From a virus: a DNA stretch of 30,139 bases. Every line of letters begins with the position of its first letter. The stretch's first letter is position 1. Below, in pieces: positions 1 through 10,757 of this stretch. The stretch spans positions 1 to 30,139 of IMG/VR virus record IMGVR_UViG_3300046777_000328. One strand, 5' to 3'. Both the position numbers and the translations under genes were made by a program. A model generated the notes under the pieces. It saw only the letters and a list, made by a program, of their open reading frames with translations. It made no database searches and was not told the origin of the DNA.

Positions 1-1329
1 GATAAGTTTCTCACCTGCTTTAGCATTACCACCGACAATGGAACCAATCTTAGCTGGCCCTGCACCGTATAGGAATGCGTAAATAAACGTCTTGGCTTGA
101 TCCCTTGTTTGAAGCCCCGCAGCTTTCTGATTCTGCGTATGTACATCAGTACCATCCTTCGATGATCCTTCAGTGACCGTCTTAACATAGTTGTCATCCT
201 TCATATAATGTGCAAGCATACGCAGCTCAAGGCCACTAGCGTCACAACCAACCAATACGTTACCGCCTTCCACAGTCCAACACTCTCTACATTCTTTTCC
301 ATAGATGCTACCTGAATTAGGAATCTGTGCCATGTTAGGACTACTGTGTGTCATCCTGCCTGTAACAGCTCCGTTAGTGATAACCTTACCGTGAACTCTA
401 CCGTCCTTACCTACAGCTTCTAACCAGCTTTCAATCTGAGCTACTCGTTTCTGTAGCATCAGGTATTCAGCAATCATCTGAGCTTCAGGAATCTTAGTGA
501 CATTAGCCAGCACTGTCTCATCGACAATAGGTTGACCTTTATCTGTAAACTCCTTAGGCTTCCAACCTAACTCCATCAGCTTCTCTCCGATCTGCTTTCT
601 ACTTCCGGGATTGAAAGTATCAACGGAATCTTTGATGGGCCTTCCATTTGTCTTGTGGAACCTTGGAGTGATGACTGGAGGCCATCGCTCTTGCATCTGT
701 TCATATATTCCTGCCATCTTTCCTTTGATGTCAGCAAGTAAGCAAGTTGTGTATGGTAAGTCAAGCTTAAACCCTGCCCTTTCCTGTTCTGAAATGATTG
801 CAGCTACCTTATGTTCAAGATCAAGGCTTTCTTGTGAAAAGTCTTTCTTAGTGAATTCATCAGTAAGATGCCTATAAAGATTACAAGTGACCTCAACATC
901 CCTAATGCAATAATACTCCAGAAGAGCCATATGAGGAACGTTAAAGCATTCACCTTTGTACTCCTCTTGTCTGTCCATTAACCATTCCCAGATCCTTTTG
1001 TAGTCAACCTTCTTGATCCCGCCCAGTCTCTCTCCCCAAGCGTCTAAGCTGTGACCGTTCTCTATTGAAGGATTTAACAACCTGCTTGCTATCAACGTAT
1101 CGCACACTTGGCTCAAGCGAATCTTCGTAGTCCATAGCCGATTGAGTATCGGAAAATCGAAGCTTATTCCGTTGTGGGCTACTATCAACGTAGTGTCCTT
1201 TAAATACTCCACGAGGCTGTTTGCTGCTTTCCATACGTTAACTTCTCCAGTGTCAATATCCTTAGTGACTACCATCCAGATCGTGTTGTGATCTAATGTT
1301 GTCTCTATGTCTAGAACGATACGCTTCAT
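1..1329 (-). CDS. T7 gp5-like family A DNA polymerase, C-terminus off the left edge
   Basis: Replicative phage DNA polymerase with an N-terminal 3'-5' exonuclease. The first 443 residues are present; motif C and the rest of the fingers and palm lie beyond position 1. Visible exonuclease motifs are DIET (D7, E9), AHNGISFD (N53, D58) and YCIRD (Y140, D144). Polymerase motifs are TGRMTHSSPNMAQIP (323-337), motif A DASGLELR (D363) and motif B RDQAKTFIYAFLYGAG (R409, K413, Y417). Y417 matches T7 Tyr526, the residue that lets the T7 enzyme discriminate poorly against dideoxynucleotides. The ATG at 1329 is chosen because a stop lies four codons upstream; its Shine-Dalgarno is weak, and the start overlaps the upstream gene by 68 nt, so translation is probably coupled. 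T7 gp5 is about 700 aa, so some 200 residues or more are missing. Family assignment is very secure. Confidence 0.96.
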   Translation of the reverse strand, partial: MKRIVLDIETTLDHNTIWMVVTKDIDTGEVNVWKAANSLVEYLKDTTLIVAHNGISFDFPILNRLWTTKIRLSQVCDTLIASRLLNPSIENGHSLDAWGERLGGIKKVDYKRIWEWLMDRQEEYKGECFNVPHMALLEYYCIRDVEVTCNLYRHLTDEFTKKDFSQESLDLEHKVAAIISEQERAGFKLDLPYTTCLLADIKGKMAGIYEQMQERWPPVITPRFHKTNGRPIKDSVDTFNPGSRKQIGEKLMELGWKPKEFTDKGQPIVDETVLANVTKIPEAQMIAEYLMLQKRVAQIESWLEAVGKDGRVHGKVITNGAVTGRMTHSSPNMAQIPNSGSIYGKECRECWTVEGGNVLVGCDASGLELRMLAHYMKDDNYVKTVTEGSSKDGTDVHTQNQKAAGLQTRDQAKTFIYAFLYGAGPAKIGSIVGGNAKAGEKLI

Positions 1330-1444
1330 ATTCAACTTTCAAGTCTTCATAGTGATGGATAAGTAATTGATACTTGTCTTGCAACTCATAGTACTTACTC
1401 TCCAGTTCTAGCATTCTACCTGCTATCTTGTCAAAGTCAATCAT
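1262..1444 (-). CDS. Small predicted coiled-coil protein overlapping the polymerase start
   Basis: A 60-aa protein of unknown function. Residues about 6-45 are rich in Leu, Glu, Lys and Tyr with heptad-like spacing (LELESKYYELQDKYQLL), suggesting a coiled coil; the tail is basic and polar. The start at 1444 is chosen over an upstream in-frame ATG because GAGGAA lies 9 nt before it and the ATG overlaps the TGA of the preceding gene as ATGA. Its last 68 nt overlap the polymerase reading frame. The position suggests a replication-linked accessory role, but no family is recognised. Confidence 0.7.
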   Translation of the reverse strand: MIDFDKIAGRMLELESKYYELQDKYQLLIHHYEDLKVEYEAYRSRHRDNIRSQHDLDGSH

Positions 1445-2994: not shown

Positions 2995-3203
2995 TTGTTA
3001 TCCCCTCTTGCTCGGATTGAGTCAGCATAGGATTTCACATCTGGTGCATTACTCAGACTTACTAAGTGTTTTGCACAAGCGTTACGCTCATGTTGTGCTA
3101 TTAACTTTGCAAATCGTTCCAAAAACTCAGGCATACCGCCAAGTCCCTCTGCCCAACCAAGACCTGCCTGTTTAGCCATCTCAATGATTTCATCTTGTGT
3201 CAT
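2991..3203 (-). CDS. HER-motif small protein of Burkholderiales phage type, 70 aa
   Basis: The sequence starts MTQDEIIEMAKQAG, passes through FLERFAKLIAQHERNACA, and ends YADSIRARGDNK. From memory this is a common small protein in phages and prophages of Burkholderiales and relatives, where the pattern is an N-terminal helix, RFAxLIAxHER, and C/YADxIRARG. It is mostly helical with no catalytic motif. It lies directly after the primase-helicase with an ATGA overlap and is followed by another one. Confidence 0.78.
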   Translation of the reverse strand: MTQDEIIEMAKQAGLGWAEGLGGMPEFLERFAKLIAQHERNACAKHLVSLSNAPDVKSYADSIRARGDNK

Positions 3204-4840
3204 AACGTATCCTCCTGCATTTCCAACATACGTCCAGTCTCCATGTCATACTTCAAAGTACACGCTGGGCCTGTATAACCATTGTAACGATTCTTAGCCA
3301 CTGCAATCTTAGTCATGTGTCTCTCATTCTCATCCTCAGCCATGCTATTACGTTCCAATGTAATCACAGCATCTGACAGCTGAGCAATTGAGCCTGAACC
3401 TCTGAGCTGCGACAATGATACTGACTGTCCATCTTCATGTCCTGCATTGCCTTGAGGTCTACGAAGGTGACTTACACAGATCAAAGTGATCTCCAACTCT
3501 TGAACCAGTGTACGAAGCTTCGTCATCATATTGTCAATCACTTTACGCTCGTCACCAAGATCATTACCAGATATAGCAATAGAGATATGATCCAAGAATA
3601 TGACACGACAGTCACAAGCTTTTGCCATATACCTGATCCTATTGGCGATATTATCAATGTCAGTGCTGCCAAAGTGGTCAAACAAATATATACGATTTGT
3701 CCCCAGTGTAGCGTCGAAGGCATCTTTAAGTTCCTGTTCAGTTGTCGGTGTATCAGGTAAGTGCAACAGCTTATTAGCGTGCAACGACATGATACTTCTA
3801 GCTGTCTTACGAGTTGACTCTTCGAGGAATAACCCTCCAATGTTCCACTTCGTAGTGTTCAGAATGTTAAACAAGATCTCACGTAAGAATTGACTCTTAC
3901 CGAGGCCTGAGCCTGCTGTGACTGTGACTAACTCCGATGGACGCATACCGTAGAGAAGCTTATTCAAGCCCTTCCAAGGGTACATAGCCTCAGCCTTAGC
4001 CTCAGGTTTAATCACTTCCTCCCACAGTGAGGCAGCATTGATAATTCCATCAGGAATGTAAACCTCAGCTCTCCACCACTCATTTACAAACTCTTTAGTA
4101 GCCCCAGCAATTAGATAATCACAAGCATCTTTGTAGCCACTCAAATGCTTAACAATCTTAGCCTTCTGTCCGAACAGTTCAGCTACCTCTTTAGAAGCCT
4201 TCTTACCCGGCTCATCAGCATCGAAGCAGATAACAATGTTCTCGAAGCTGTTTAACCATTCATATTGAGCTTTACAGTCCTTTAGAGCAGCTTGAGCACC
4301 ATTCCTGATACTTACTGAAGGCCACTGGCTACCTGTGAGCTGGTATCCTGCCAAGGCATCAAGTTCTCCCTCATAGACGGTGACGTACTTGCCACCTGCG
4401 TGAAAGAGCTGTTGACCGAACAACCTAGCATCTTTGAATGAGCCAAGAATGCTGAAAGTTTTATCTGCCACTCGTCTAACTTTTGAGGCGATAACTGTTC
4501 CGGTATCGTCAGTGTAAGGATAAAAGTGTTGTCCATTGTCTTGTGTTACTCCATATTTCTCACACGTTTGTAATGTAATACCTCTGTCAGGTATTGATTT
4601 AACATTTCCTTTAACTTCTAACATAGGTGATGTTACCTTGGTTGATTTTCTGTTAACTGCATCTTGCTTAACTGTGAAGTCATCATATTCATTCTCATGA
4701 TGTGTTTCATGACAGTTAAAGCAATAGGTGTGGTTGTCATCGTATAAAGCACCTGCGTCTGAGCTGCCACAGTACTCACAGGGTATGTGCTTTACAAACT
4801 TTGACTCAGGTTTCTCTTTGCGTACTACACTAAGCTTCAT
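3200..4840 (-). CDS. T7 gp4-like bifunctional DNA primase-helicase
   Basis: Unwinds the fork and makes RNA primers for the phage polymerase. In order (546-aa numbering): a four-cysteine zinc ribbon (C21, C24, C40, C43); a TOPRIM primase with EGELDA (E157) and FDADEPG (D207, D209); and a RecA-like hexameric helicase with Walker A GSGLGKS (310-316, K315), Walker B VIFLD (D417), CVSHLRRP (453-462 region, H458) and a later AKNRYNG where the arginine finger is expected. Length fits T7 gp4 (566 aa). I prefer the ATG at 4840, with GGAGG at 5-nt spacing. The ATG at 4861 would add seven residues, lacks a good site and overlaps the previous gene more deeply. The stop overlaps the next start (ATGA). Confidence 0.96.
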   Translation of the reverse strand: MKLSVVRKEKPESKFVKHIPCEYCGSSDAGALYDDNHTYCFNCHETHHENEYDDFTVKQDAVNRKSTKVTSPMLEVKGNVKSIPDRGITLQTCEKYGVTQDNGQHFYPYTDDTGTVIASKVRRVADKTFSILGSFKDARLFGQQLFHAGGKYVTVYEGELDALAGYQLTGSQWPSVSIRNGAQAALKDCKAQYEWLNSFENIVICFDADEPGKKASKEVAELFGQKAKIVKHLSGYKDACDYLIAGATKEFVNEWWRAEVYIPDGIINAASLWEEVIKPEAKAEAMYPWKGLNKLLYGMRPSELVTVTAGSGLGKSQFLREILFNILNTTKWNIGGLFLEESTRKTARSIMSLHANKLLHLPDTPTTEQELKDAFDATLGTNRIYLFDHFGSTDIDNIANRIRYMAKACDCRVIFLDHISIAISGNDLGDERKVIDNMMTKLRTLVQELEITLICVSHLRRPQGNAGHEDGQSVSLSQLRGSGSIAQLSDAVITLERNSMAEDENERHMTKIAVAKNRYNGYTGPACTLKYDMETGRMLEMQEDTL

Positions 4841-5075
4841 CACAGCCTCCGTCTGTTTCATTTAGTACCCTTTCCGTGCCAAGGGCACTCCTAAGGCCTT
4901 CAATGGTCTTTAGAGCTGTTTTATCAGGGTATCCATAGTAGATGTCCCCTCTGAGCTGAAAAGCTGTGAAATCCTCTAACATGGACAATGTCTCAGCTAG
5001 AGTCTTAAGGCTTGCATCACCTGAGAGTGTGTTAGACGGGAAAGGCCAAGGCTTTTGTGGGTCAATGTCAGTCAT
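4830..5075 (-). CDS. Hypothetical protein upstream of primase-helicase, 81 aa
   Basis: Unknown. The sequence starts MTDIDPQKPWPFP, has a helical middle (LKTLAETLSMLEDFTAFQL), and ends ETDGGCDEA. It is acidic and probably cytoplasmic. Its end overlaps the primase-helicase start by 11 nt and encodes that gene's GGAGG Shine-Dalgarno, so the two are probably co-translated. Its own ATG shares bases with the TAA of the tiny upstream frame. Confidence 0.7.
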   Translation of the reverse strand: MTDIDPQKPWPFPSNTLSGDASLKTLAETLSMLEDFTAFQLRGDIYYGYPDKTALKTIEGLRSALGTERVLNETDGGCDEA

Positions 5076-8063: not shown

Positions 8064-8131
8064 GATGTTATGTCCTTTAGTTAGACACTAGCACTATTGC
8101 TCTTGTCTTGCCCTCTATTATCCAGCTCTAC

Positions 8132-8204
8132 CTTACACGAACCTTACAATCACAATATTTTTATCATCTTTACAAAACTTTACAATACTGTAAGCTTTGT
8201 AAGG
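8132..8204. repeat. CTTACA/TTTACA repeat cluster next to the early operon
   Basis: Four direct copies (CTTACA at 8132 and 8143; CTTTACA at 8168 and 8178) and two inverted copies (TGTAAG at 8189, TGTAAGG at 8198) are spaced 9-11 bp within each pair, about one helical turn. They lie 70-140 bp upstream of the first leftward gene. This is typical of a multi-site operator or iteron array, but no binding protein is identified. Confidence 0.5.
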
Positions 8205-8291
8205 TGATATTGATTTAAACGGCTTTAGAGCGATTATTTCAGTTTTGCATACTTACCCCTTGGAGAAAGTTACTAACACCACAACTACTAC

Positions 8292-8523
8292 TTATCCACA
8301 GTTGTAACTCTTATATAAGACTAAAACCTGTGTATAACTTTGGTTTTGTGGTCACTTATCCACAGCCTTGTGTATAACTTGTGAGTAACTCTTTAGTTAG
8401 GGTTTATACTAGGTAGTGCTTTATAGGTGCTACATTGCCATTCACACTTGGCCTAGTTAGTAAACTACTAGTTAGTCAACTAGATGTGGATAACTTTGTA
8501 GCTTGTGGATAACCTGTGGATAA
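8292..8523. other. DnaA-box cluster, putative replication origin or DnaA sink
   Basis: The perfect bacterial DnaA box TTATCCACA occurs at 8292-8300 and 8356-8364 on the plus strand. It occurs as TGTGGATAA (minus strand) at 8485-8493, 8504-8512 and 8515-8523. Two near-matches TGTGTATAA lie at 8329-8337 and 8369-8377. The plus-strand and minus-strand perfect boxes form opposed groups around a spacer with two CTAGTTAGT direct repeats (8453, 8468) and a CTAGTT-AGTC-AACTAG inverted repeat (8468-8483). Five exact 9-mers in 232 bp cannot be chance. Origin function itself is inferred. Confidence 0.8.
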
Positions 8524-8645
8524 CTTTAGAGTGACTATGTAAGTGAGTACTGACTACAAAGTTACTGGGGGGAGGGGTGACTGCTTAGTGATTACTTTTG
8601 CGGGAGCCTACAAAGTACACAAAAAAGGATAAATAGGACTAAGTA

Positions 8646-8674
8646 GTTATAACTTATAACCAATTGATCTACAA
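8646..8674 (-). promoter_or_regulatory. Weak candidate leftward promoter
   Basis: On the minus strand TTGTAG (8674-8669), a 17-nt spacer, then TATAAC (8651-8646). It would give a long leader (nearly 590 nt) before the first leftward gene and cross the DnaA boxes. It is the best sigma-70-like match I found for the early operon, but it is not strong. Confidence 0.22.
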
Positions 8675-8807
8675 AGAAAAAGTAGAACTATAGAGTACAA
8701 TCTAGACACCCTGAGAAAGGGGAACTTTAAAGGTCTTAAAAGTAGCGTATAAGAATTAGAGTGTAGACTCTAAAGTGAACAAAAAAGTAAAATAAATAAG
8801 AAAAGAC

Positions 8808-8836
8808 TTGACAAATAGACAAAGATAGTGTATAAT
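8808..8836 (+). promoter_or_regulatory. Consensus sigma-70 promoter for the late operon
   Basis: TTGACA (8808-8813), a 17-nt spacer, then TATAAT (8831-8836), with both hexamers exactly consensus. The start point should be near 8843, giving an mRNA leader of about 300 nt before the small terminase gene. A perfect promoter for host RNA polymerase implies strong host-driven transcription of the structural genes unless it is repressed. Confidence 0.85.
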
Positions 8837-8863
8837 ATTCTACATAGGAAATAATTGTGTTTA

Positions 8864-8889
8864 CTAAGAAGCCTGACCCCACTTCTTAG
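8864..8889 (+). other. Stem-loop near the 5' end of the late mRNA
   Basis: CTAAGAAG (8864-8871) and CTTCTTAG (8882-8889) form a perfect 8-bp stem with the 10-nt loop CCTGACCCCA, about 20 nt downstream of the expected transcription start. No T-run follows, so a terminator is unlikely. A 5' mRNA-stabilising or protein-binding hairpin is possible. Confidence 0.55.
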
Positions 8890-8932
8890 GTTGACTGAAA
8901 TGTATAGCGTAAGCGTACACCTTGGAAAGGGA

Positions 8933-8959
8933 ACATAGAAGTTAAAGACACTATTAAAG
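8933..8959 (+). repeat. Leader repeat, copy 2
   Basis: ACATAGAAGTTAAA, then G, then ACACTATTAAAG. It matches the minus-strand copy at 5449-5423 at 26 of 27 positions. It lies in the late mRNA leader about 90 nt after the expected start point and is followed by the shared TTACTTATAAAGTAA block at 8989-9003. Confidence 0.85.
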
Positions 8960-8988
8960 ATAATTATTATAAGTTATTACTGTTAATG

Positions 8989-9088
8989 TTACTTATAAAG
9001 TAATTAATATTAATAATACTATTATAAGTACTTATAATATTTATGTCTATATAACATTTATGTTAATGTCTTAGGTACTTTATAGTAC
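8989..9088. repeat. Chain of AT-rich palindromes before the terminase genes
   Basis: Five consecutive symmetric elements: TTACTT-ATA-AAGTAA (8989-9003); ATTAATATTAAT (8003-equivalent half sites at 9003-9014); a perfect 20-bp palindrome with half-site TATTATAAGT (9020-9039); AACAT-TT-ATGTT (9053-9064); and GTACT-TTAT-AGTAC (9075-9088). The stretch 8940-9070 is almost pure A+T and would melt easily. It could serve as an origin unwinding element, an operator array or a structured mRNA leader. Confidence 0.7.
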
Positions 9089-9145
9089 TCCACTTAAAAG
9101 TCTCCTTCGTGCTGGAAGCACTTCTATAAAGGACAAAGACGAGCA

Positions 9146-9505
9146 ATGACTAAACCAACAGGTAATAAAGTAGGACGTACCTCTAAAAGGGAACTAAAAG
9201 CTATCACTGAAAATCGTAGTGTCGGTAGACCTAAGGGTGATGCAGCTATTATCAATGAGTATAAGCTTAGGATGCTTAACTCACCTAAGAGTGCTAAGGT
9301 TCTAGAAGCTATTTATGATGCAGCTCTTAATGATGAGCATAAGAATCAAGCGGCAGCATGGAAGTTAATTGTCGATAGGATTGTACCTGTCAGTGTGTTT
9401 GAAGCTCAGAAGGCTGGTAATAATACCCCTACTGTGTCGATCAACATAACAGGTTTAACGTCACCTACAATCAGTACTAATAGTGATGAGGTGATAGATG
9501 TCTGA
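9146..9505 (+). CDS. terS: Terminase small subunit
   Basis: Recognises phage DNA and starts packaging with the large subunit. It is 119 aa. The basic N-terminus (KVGRTSKRELKAI, VGRPKGDAAI) is followed by a helical core (KSAKVLEAIYDAALN, NQAAAWKLIVDRIVP), a usual arrangement for small terminases of podoviruses. The C-terminus is Thr/Ser-rich and probably flexible. The assignment rests on size, this pattern and its position directly before the large terminase, which it overlaps by 8 nt. AAAGGA lies upstream. It is the first gene after the late promoter and its 300-nt leader. Confidence 0.82.
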   Translation: MTKPTGNKVGRTSKRELKAITENRSVGRPKGDAAIINEYKLRMLNSPKSAKVLEAIYDAALNDEHKNQAAAWKLIVDRIVPVSVFEAQKAGNNTPTVSINITGLTSPTISTNSDEVIDV

Positions 9506-10757
9506 GTTAAACTTTCAACTGCTTAAGTGGCAGCAGAATGTCTTTAAAGACACCACTCGCTTTAAAGTAGTCGCTGCAGGTCGAAGGTGTGGTAAGTCAA
9601 GACTGTCAGCAGTATCGTTACTGATTGAAGGTCTTAACTGTCCAGACGGGTCAGCTGTGATGTACATAGCACCTACCTTAGGGCAAGCTAGAACAATTAT
9701 GTGGGACTTACTGCACGAGCTAGGTAGACCTGTGATTAAGTCTAGCCATGTAAATAACTTAGAGATTACTCTGATCAACGGTAAGAAGATCTTAGTACGA
9801 GGAGCTGATAATCCCGATTCTCTGCGAGGTGTTTCCTTAATTTACGTAGTGCTGGACGAATGTGCCTTCATAAAAGAGGATGTATGGCAAAAAATCATTC
9901 GAGCTTCACTGTCAGATAAGAAGGGTAGAGCTCTCTTCATCAGTACTCCTTCAGGTCGTAATTGGTTCTACGATACTTTCAATCTAGGACAAGACAACCA
10001 AGATGAAGAGTGGAAGAGCTGGCACTTCACAACGCAGGATAACGAGACTATTGATCCTAAGGAGATTGAGGCTGCAAAGCGTACATTGAGTTCCTTTGCA
10101 TTCAAGCAAGAGTACTTGTCTAGTTTCGATACAGCAGGTGCTGATGTCTTTAAAGAGGAATGGTTTAAGTTAGCTGAAGAACCTCAGTTTGGTAGTTACA
10201 TTGTAGCTATTGACTTAGCAGGTTTTGAAGAGGTAGGTAAGAATGCAGGGGCTTCTAAGAAGAGGCTAGACGAGACAGCTATTGCAGTTGTTAAGTTAGA
10301 AGATAATGGTAACTGGTGGGTACACAAGATCCAGCACGGTAGGTGGGACATCAGAGAGACTGCAGTTAACATCTTGAAAGTGATCAGAGACTTTCAACCT
10401 ACAAGTATAGGTATTGAGCGAGGAGCATTGAAGAATGCTGTGTTGCCATATCTTAATGACTTGATGAGGAAGAATAACATCTATGCTCACATACAGGATT
10501 TAACTCACGGTAACAAGAAGAAAACTGATAGGGTTGTCTGGAGCTTACAAGGTCGTTTAGAGCACGGAAGGATCACCTTCAATGAGGATGAGGACTGGGA
10601 TGAGTTCAGAGATCAATTAGTTATGTTCCCAACAGCCGGTGTACATGATGACTTGGTAGATGCTCTCAGTTACATTGATCAACTTGCTGTAGCTTCATAC
10701 AACGCTGACTACGAAGAAGATGAGTGGGAAGTTTACGATAAGATTGCTGGCTACTAA
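9498..10757 (+). CDS. terL: Terminase large subunit (packaging ATPase and nuclease)
   Basis: Pumps DNA into the prohead at the portal and cuts it. The 419-aa protein has Walker A GRRCGKS (28-34), Walker B VVLDE (D120, E121) and a coupling motif FISTPSGR (148-154). The C-terminal RNase H-like nuclease has VAIDLAG (D239), IGIERG (E307) and HDDLVDAL (D384, D385, D388), the expected acidic triad. The length is normal for a compact podovirus large terminase. It overlaps the small terminase by 8 nt and precedes the portal region, the usual order. Confidence 0.96.
   Translation: MSELNFQLLKWQQNVFKDTTRFKVVAAGRRCGKSRLSAVSLLIEGLNCPDGSAVMYIAPTLGQARTIMWDLLHELGRPVIKSSHVNNLEITLINGKKILVRGADNPDSLRGVSLIYVVLDECAFIKEDVWQKIIRASLSDKKGRALFISTPSGRNWFYDTFNLGQDNQDEEWKSWHFTTQDNETIDPKEIEAAKRTLSSFAFKQEYLSSFDTAGADVFKEEWFKLAEEPQFGSYIVAIDLAGFEEVGKNAGASKKRLDETAIAVVKLEDNGNWWVHKIQHGRWDIRETAVNILKVIRDFQPTSIGIERGALKNAVLPYLNDLMRKNNIYAHIQDLTHGNKKKTDRVVWSLQGRLEHGRITFNEDEDWDEFRDQLVMFPTAGVHDDLVDALSYIDQLAVASYNADYEEDEWEVYDKIAGY

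Follow-up and report, generated by a model that had tools for sequence, protein, structure and literature searches.

DnaA boxes lie beside iterons in oriR, the plasmid origin of P1, and the initiator acting on these iterons, RepA, is a product of P1 itself. The primary origin of T7 consists of a promoter followed by an AT-rich stretch. In E. coli, the locus datA titrates DnaA by means of a dense box cluster, and DnaA also acts as a transcription factor. Clusters of CtrA sites have been described in pilitropic and flagellotropic phages of Alphaproteobacteria, where binding was shown and "lytic deferment" was proposed (PMC9437464). SdhR, a TCA-cycle regulator of Burkholderiales, belongs to the GntR/HutC family and has the motif TCTTATGTCTTATATAAGACATAAGA (PMC4494728).

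The window analysed here, that is, the whole stretch of DNA under study, is a 30.1 kb viral contig (30,139 bases) from a freshwater bacterial virus. Its large intergenic region carries a real, conserved and mobile cis-element, to which a regulatory function may be ascribed. Its novelty lies in combining DnaA boxes with what looks like an operator for a regulator of central metabolism.

Genomic layout of the window

The primase-helicase and polymerase are encoded on the minus strand, and the plus strand encodes the terminase, portal, capsid and tail proteins. The noncoding region between them contained no ORF of at least 60 aa in the ORF list. The features of the locus are as follows.

1–1335, minus strand: DNA polymerase, family A-type, running off the contig end (phrog_17, E 2e-114)
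3200–4861, minus strand: T7-like primase-helicase (phrog_239, E 6e-187)
8064–9145, no strand: noncoding region, with leftward early/replication genes on one side and rightward packaging/structural genes on the other (ORF list)
8270–8278, plus strand: decayed DnaA box TTACTAACA, 22 bp before the box at 8292 (alignment)
8292–8300, plus strand: DnaA box TTATCCACA
8292–8337, no strand: composite 46-bp imperfect palindrome made of DnaA box, putative SdhR-operator core and inverted box (inverted repeat I1, 80% complementary)
8309–8320, no strand: palindrome TCTTATATAAGA, putative SdhR-operator core of 12 bp (match to the SdhR motif and host operators)
8329–8337, minus strand: DnaA box TTATACACA
8356–8364, plus strand: DnaA box TTATCCACA, conserved in relatives
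8369–8377, minus strand: DnaA box TTATACACA
8485–8493, minus strand: DnaA box TTATCCACA, opening a set of three direct boxes with spacing 19/11
8504–8512, minus strand: DnaA box TTATCCACA
8515–8523, minus strand: DnaA box TTATCCACA
8808–8836, plus strand: sigma-70 promoter, perfect TTGACA-17-TATAAT, kept in nearly all aligned relatives with any cassette
8950–9065, plus strand: AT-rich stretch 3' of the promoter, candidate strand-opening zone (sequence, alignment)
9498–10757, plus strand: terminase large subunit (phrog_2, E 1e-47), used as anchor for the cassette position in relatives

The phrog matches confirmed the T7-like primase-helicase and polymerase that an earlier sequence-only reading had recognised. 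No DnaA-family gene was found in the contig, no GntR-family gene was found among 24 related phages, and Rfam and tRNA scans gave no matches. A T7-like RNA polymerase had no match in the 24 relatives, in a search run without a working positive control. The right flank, comprising the sigma-70 promoter and the AT-rich stretch, was common to all cassette types; the AT-rich stretch is located approximately 430 bp off the nearest DnaA box and was also present in cassette types without boxes. The sequence GAAGCCTGACCCCACTTCTTAG at 8866–8890, downstream of the promoter, could fold as a short leader hairpin. No consensus leftward promoter adjoining the palindrome was found.

DnaA boxes

Five copies of TTATCCACA and two of TTATACACA were present in the 232 bp between 8292 and 8523. 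The pattern TTATNCACA occurred seven times in the 30,139-base contig, every time within this segment. Dinucleotide-preserving shuffles of the segment yielded a mean of 0.023 boxes with a maximum of 1 (n = 2000), and those of the whole intergenic region (8064–9145) a mean of 0.078 with a maximum of 2. The exact positions and the shuffles confirm that the clustering, which had been read as non-random, is real and far beyond chance. The earlier estimate of one given 9-mer per 131 kb is right under equal base frequencies, and the 11 bp spacing of two minus-strand boxes (8504/8515) was also verified. The 11/19 spacing, counting the box at 8485, recurred in the relatives L022 and L059. Where the window has the decayed box (8270–8278), several relatives and Limnohabitans phage DC31 have an intact TTATCCACA.

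Conservation in related genomes had been put forward as a check on this cluster. The number, spacing and orientation of the boxes were indeed kept in many relatives, and the arrangement was retained in the 26 relatives carrying a combined DnaA and SdhR cassette (type I), but it is not fixed across the phage type: most relatives had only three to five boxes, some had none, and the other cassette types lacked the arrangement. The boxes are most naturally read as serving host DnaA, because the contig has no DnaA gene of its own; DnaA cannot, however, be strictly required by this replisome, since some relatives with the primase have an SdhR-only cassette or neither site. The CTAGTTAGT repeat, around which the boxes had been described as opposed, was present at 8453 and 8468 and is probably incidental, as it was missing from the aligned relatives.

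Box pairs are no rarity among phages: paired boxes of the form TTATCCACA-N13-TTATCCACA were found in at least 120 IMG/VR stretches. Paired boxes resembling window positions 8485–8530 were also seen, with weak E-values, in unrelated phages, some of them near genome ends. These included E. coli phage P483 (37.3 kb of 40.8 kb), Klebsiella phage cp31 (position 41–72), Vibrio phage BD1 (47.16 of 47.2 kb), the Lactococcus AM4 group and several Microviridae.

The palindrome between the boxes and the host operator of SdhR

Between the boxes lies a palindrome that the sequence-only reading overlooked; it is conserved to the same degree as they are. The boxes at 8292–8300 (plus) and 8329–8337 (minus) are placed symmetrically around it, and CTTATATAAG lies inside its core at 8310–8319. 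A text search across the papers covered matched the core to one relevant article, which gives the SdhR motif (PMC4494728). The core looks like that of the SdhR operator, while the full 26-bp site in the window, 8302–8327, is at chance level: compared with the full GTCTTATATAAGAC plus outer half-sites, the window matched at 18/26 bp, no better than shuffled sequence. The right half-site of the GTC..GAC type was retained, and the left half-site had C for G, as in 22/26 of the type I relatives. Type II relatives matched the full 26-bp motif at 24/26. The basis for the assignment to SdhR is the invariant core together with these type II matches. The exact host SdhR 20-mer could be found in 85 viral stretches, type II relatives included, where well under one was expected. 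Host contamination of these contigs was considered and rejected, as none encoded SdhR, SdhA or Mdh.

In Burkholderia and Caballeronia megaplasmids, the SdhR operator had mdh on one side and on the other a GntR-UTRA gene, after which came sdhC, sdhD and sdhA; this host sdhR-sdhCDAB/mdh operator lies in a divergent promoter region. The 20-mer was also located approximately 110 bp upstream of acnB and approximately 100 bp upstream of isocitrate lyase. A survey of 72,556 plasmid records showed that good 20-mer matches are nearly confined to Burkholderiales, with the exception of Sinorhizobium mexicanum, where the 20-mer occurred approximately 100 bp from an SdhR homologue. The isolated phages that carry the unit infect Limnohabitans (DC31) and Curvibacter (P26059A), both of the Burkholderiales family Comamonadaceae; the host operators compared are from Burkholderiales megaplasmids, those of Burkholderia and Caballeronia included, and a host of this order is presumed for the contig. 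Taken together, the element is quite probably a cassette for host DnaA and host SdhR, and both proteins may be predicted to bind it.

Spread and position of the unit

Among 50,697 phage records, DNA similar to the box-palindrome unit was detected in the 76-kb Limnohabitans phage DC31, at 78% over 94 bp, and a weaker match was obtained in the 84-kb Curvibacter phage P26059A. The window shared one protein of at least 90 aa with each of them, the primase. This was established by direct comparison; clustering the carriers by shared proteins gave one big group. Because only the primase is shared with DC31 and P26059A, the noncoding unit travels between phages almost alone. None of the DnaA or SdhR sites was present in P26059B, a T7-like Curvibacter phage that shares its host with P26059A and encodes an RNA polymerase of its own.

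The pattern TTATCCACA-N6-11-CTTATATAAG was present in at least 120 IMG/VR stretches, and the matches listed amounted to 113 distinct loci, a few of which overlapped earlier ones. A control with a scrambled palindrome of equal composition gave three viral matches. Across 84,980 species genomes (257 Gb of bacteria and archaea) the pattern occurred six times, scattered, and never in Burkholderiales. Core sites boxed on both sides numbered 118 in the viral loci, with gaps of 8–10 bp between box and core. When 80 IMG/VR loci were picked by the primase alone, 34 contained TCTTATATAAGA, with 39 copies in 885 kb against 0.0 in shuffles.

The relatives carried the palindrome at a single place, the divergent region upstream of the terminase. 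It lay 0–2.5 kb upstream of the terminase in 116 of the 121 loci with a terminase homologue (28–97% identity) and 2.4–5.5 kb upstream of the primase in all 97 loci with a primase homologue; many of the loci in these counts were fetched by pattern, with their gene context unselected. The unit was outside any divergent gap in DC31, where it lies at 20.2 kb, and in P26059A, where it lies at 72.3 kb. Nine carriers (L099, L110, L121, L124, L160, L164, L174, L189 and L199) contained 8–11 copies of ACCCACTGGGT, mostly within approximately 2 kb around the DnaA-SdhR unit.

Alternative cassettes at the same site

Among 48 relatives with the primase, the window included, the type I cassette was present in 26. 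Eight carried an SdhR-only cassette with one or more copies, six a DnaA-only cassette with boxes in direct repeat and no palindrome, and the remaining eight other cassettes, some of which were arrays in which GGCAAATATTGCC-like palindromes are spaced by 22 bp. With a core but no boxes in eight relatives, and boxes but no core in six, neither the SdhR core nor the DnaA boxes are essential for the clade. A fourth cassette type (L010, L036, L048, L055 and L058) consisted of three GGCAAATATTGCC-like palindromes approximately 22 bp apart; it stands where 8260–8540 of the window does and has neither DnaA boxes nor the SdhR core. The GGCAAATATTGCC array had exact matches in four viral stretches, and its motif gave no match in the papers searched. 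Such an array is perhaps the operator of another host regulator.

Cassettes at this site are swapped rapidly between relatives. Different cassettes were found beside identical primases, and at least 19 changes of cassette type were required on the primase tree of 48 rows, which is no reduction against shuffled labels (20.6). The small early genes adjoining the cassette partly travel together with its type; a 75-aa gene was found only with type I (15/26). A GP88-family gene (Pfam PF17338) accompanied the SdhR-only cassette in 7/8 loci (L014, L031, L034 and others). No DNA-binding family was found among the cassette-linked early genes, and a cognate phage DNA-binding gene tied to the cassette type was rejected on this ground.

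Replication origin or transcriptional control

The cassette in the divergent intergenic region would be read by two proteins, DnaA and SdhR, which would be those of the host, because the contig has no DnaA gene and the 24 phages no GntR gene. It may represent the regulatory half of a phage replication origin. Host DnaA would assemble on the boxes and help to open the DNA in the nearby promoter and AT-rich stretch, and the ring-shaped primase-helicase and the polymerase of the phage could take over at the opened DNA. SdhR between the boxes would be a gate that responds to the carbon-metabolic state of the host; it might either promote or block the assembly of DnaA. As far as the sequence allows a judgement, this explanation of the element as half of an origin with host DnaA and SdhR has an even chance of being right. 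Origin activity is a further step beyond the identity of the cassette, and one on which our opinion is equally divided.

A skew inflection had been suggested as a sign of the origin, and it failed to serve as one. The GC-skew minimum at 8328 is confounded by the switch in gene direction at the same place. The skew minimum of DC31 was at 35.1 kb, where gene direction changes, and its unit at 20.2 kb; no skew extremum occurred at the unit in DC31 or P26059A, and skew tracked gene direction in all three. GC skew was therefore dropped as evidence. In DC31, iterons of approximately 20 bp follow the unit in a gap of 930 bp where gene direction does not change, a layout that appears origin-like and fits an origin better than a promoter. 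The tandem repeats of approximately 20 bp with TGACTGnACCGnTC that adjoin the unit in this phage (L001, 12140–12330) are iteron-like.

The main rival to the origin reading is transcriptional control only, in which SdhR and DnaA tune an early promoter to host metabolism and replication starts elsewhere. In the host, the SdhR operator serves to control transcription and also occupies a divergent promoter region, and the CtrA sites of Alphaproteobacteria phages (PMC9437464) provide a precedent. Cassettes without any DnaA box exist, and a perfect sigma-70 promoter is available 290–530 bp rightward; however, a consensus leftward promoter adjoining the palindrome is missing, and in DC31 and P26059A the unit sits outside a divergent gap. 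Several boxes with origin-like spacing, together with the DC31 iterons, also suit an origin better, and control of transcription only is possible but rather doubtful. Capture of oriC from the host chromosome, which DnaA boxes with an AT-rich neighbour could suggest, was rejected as highly improbable, as the composite occurred in no Burkholderiales genome among the 84,980 species genomes, a scan with the exact pattern from which a degenerate form of the composite would escape.

Titration would require no fixed symmetric spacing around one operator, and a single operator per genome would make a weak sponge. In that explanation, hundreds of replicated copies sequester DnaA, in the manner of datA, and SdhR, so that host initiation stops and the expression of TCA-cycle genes shifts. 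Seven boxes in 232 bp, and the extra direct boxes in the window, L022 and L059, would suit it; the three to five boxes of most relatives, and their absence in some, would not, and we consider titration improbable. The palindrome could also be read by a phage protein or another host protein, its likeness to SdhR being due to chance. This is unlikely, although the window site is no better than shuffled sequence against the 26-bp motif and the cassette types are linked with small early genes such as the 75-aa gene of type I. Chance is a poor explanation for the exact host 20-mer in type II relatives, and a phage reader is disfavoured by linked genes without a DNA-binding family, by the lack of a GntR gene in the 24 phages, and by a unit common to phages with almost no other shared gene.

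The DnaA and SdhR sites suggest that the virus couples its start-up to the condition of the host. More broadly, and as a tentative proposal that falls somewhat short of an even chance, freshwater Burkholderiales phages may possess an exchangeable "host-state sensor" cassette, always at the same genome site, which gates replication or early transcription. The regulators would be SdhR, DnaA, both, or others (the GGCAAATATTGCC arrays), swapped between near-identical phages. If this is true, it would be the first case of a phage switch linked to central carbon metabolism by a host operator. Widespread lytic phages of abundant freshwater bacteria would then sense the carbon status and replication readiness of the host by means of two host regulators, the phage having no sensor of its own. 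Ecologists observe a correlation between host nutrition and phage growth, and the cassette would offer a concrete molecular path linking the two. The proposal is directly testable with the unit-bearing phages in culture, DC31 on Limnohabitans and P26059A on Curvibacter, with P26059B as a natural control.

Comparison with known systems

The CtrA-site phages are similar in that the phage has no regulator gene, sites of a host regulator are focused in a large intergenic region, and several unrelated lineages carry them; in the window, too, the regulator gene was absent and the sites were concentrated in one intergenic region. The difference is that CtrA is a cell-cycle regulator acting on transcription, with binding shown, whereas here DnaA and a TCA-cycle regulator appear to be paired in one composite element that was read from sequence alone.

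As in oriR of P1, a noncoding putative origin combines boxes for host DnaA with a further kind of site, and DC31 has iterons as well. Here, however, this further site would be an operator for host metabolism, and a gene for an initiator was not recognised. The resemblance to T7 consists of a T7-type primase-helicase and, at 8808–9065, a strong promoter with AT-rich noncoding DNA downstream of it, but the promoter is of the host sigma-70 type and DnaA boxes are added. With datA it shares a dense cluster of DnaA boxes outside oriC, which here have a fixed symmetric arrangement around what looks like the operator of another protein. Finally, the SdhR regulon of Burkholderiales, with operators at sdhR/mdh, acnB and aceA (PMC4494728), has the same 12-bp core, and the 20-mer is identical in type II relatives; the phage element differs from it by its context, its flanking DnaA boxes and the one half-site that is usually altered in the DnaA and SdhR type.
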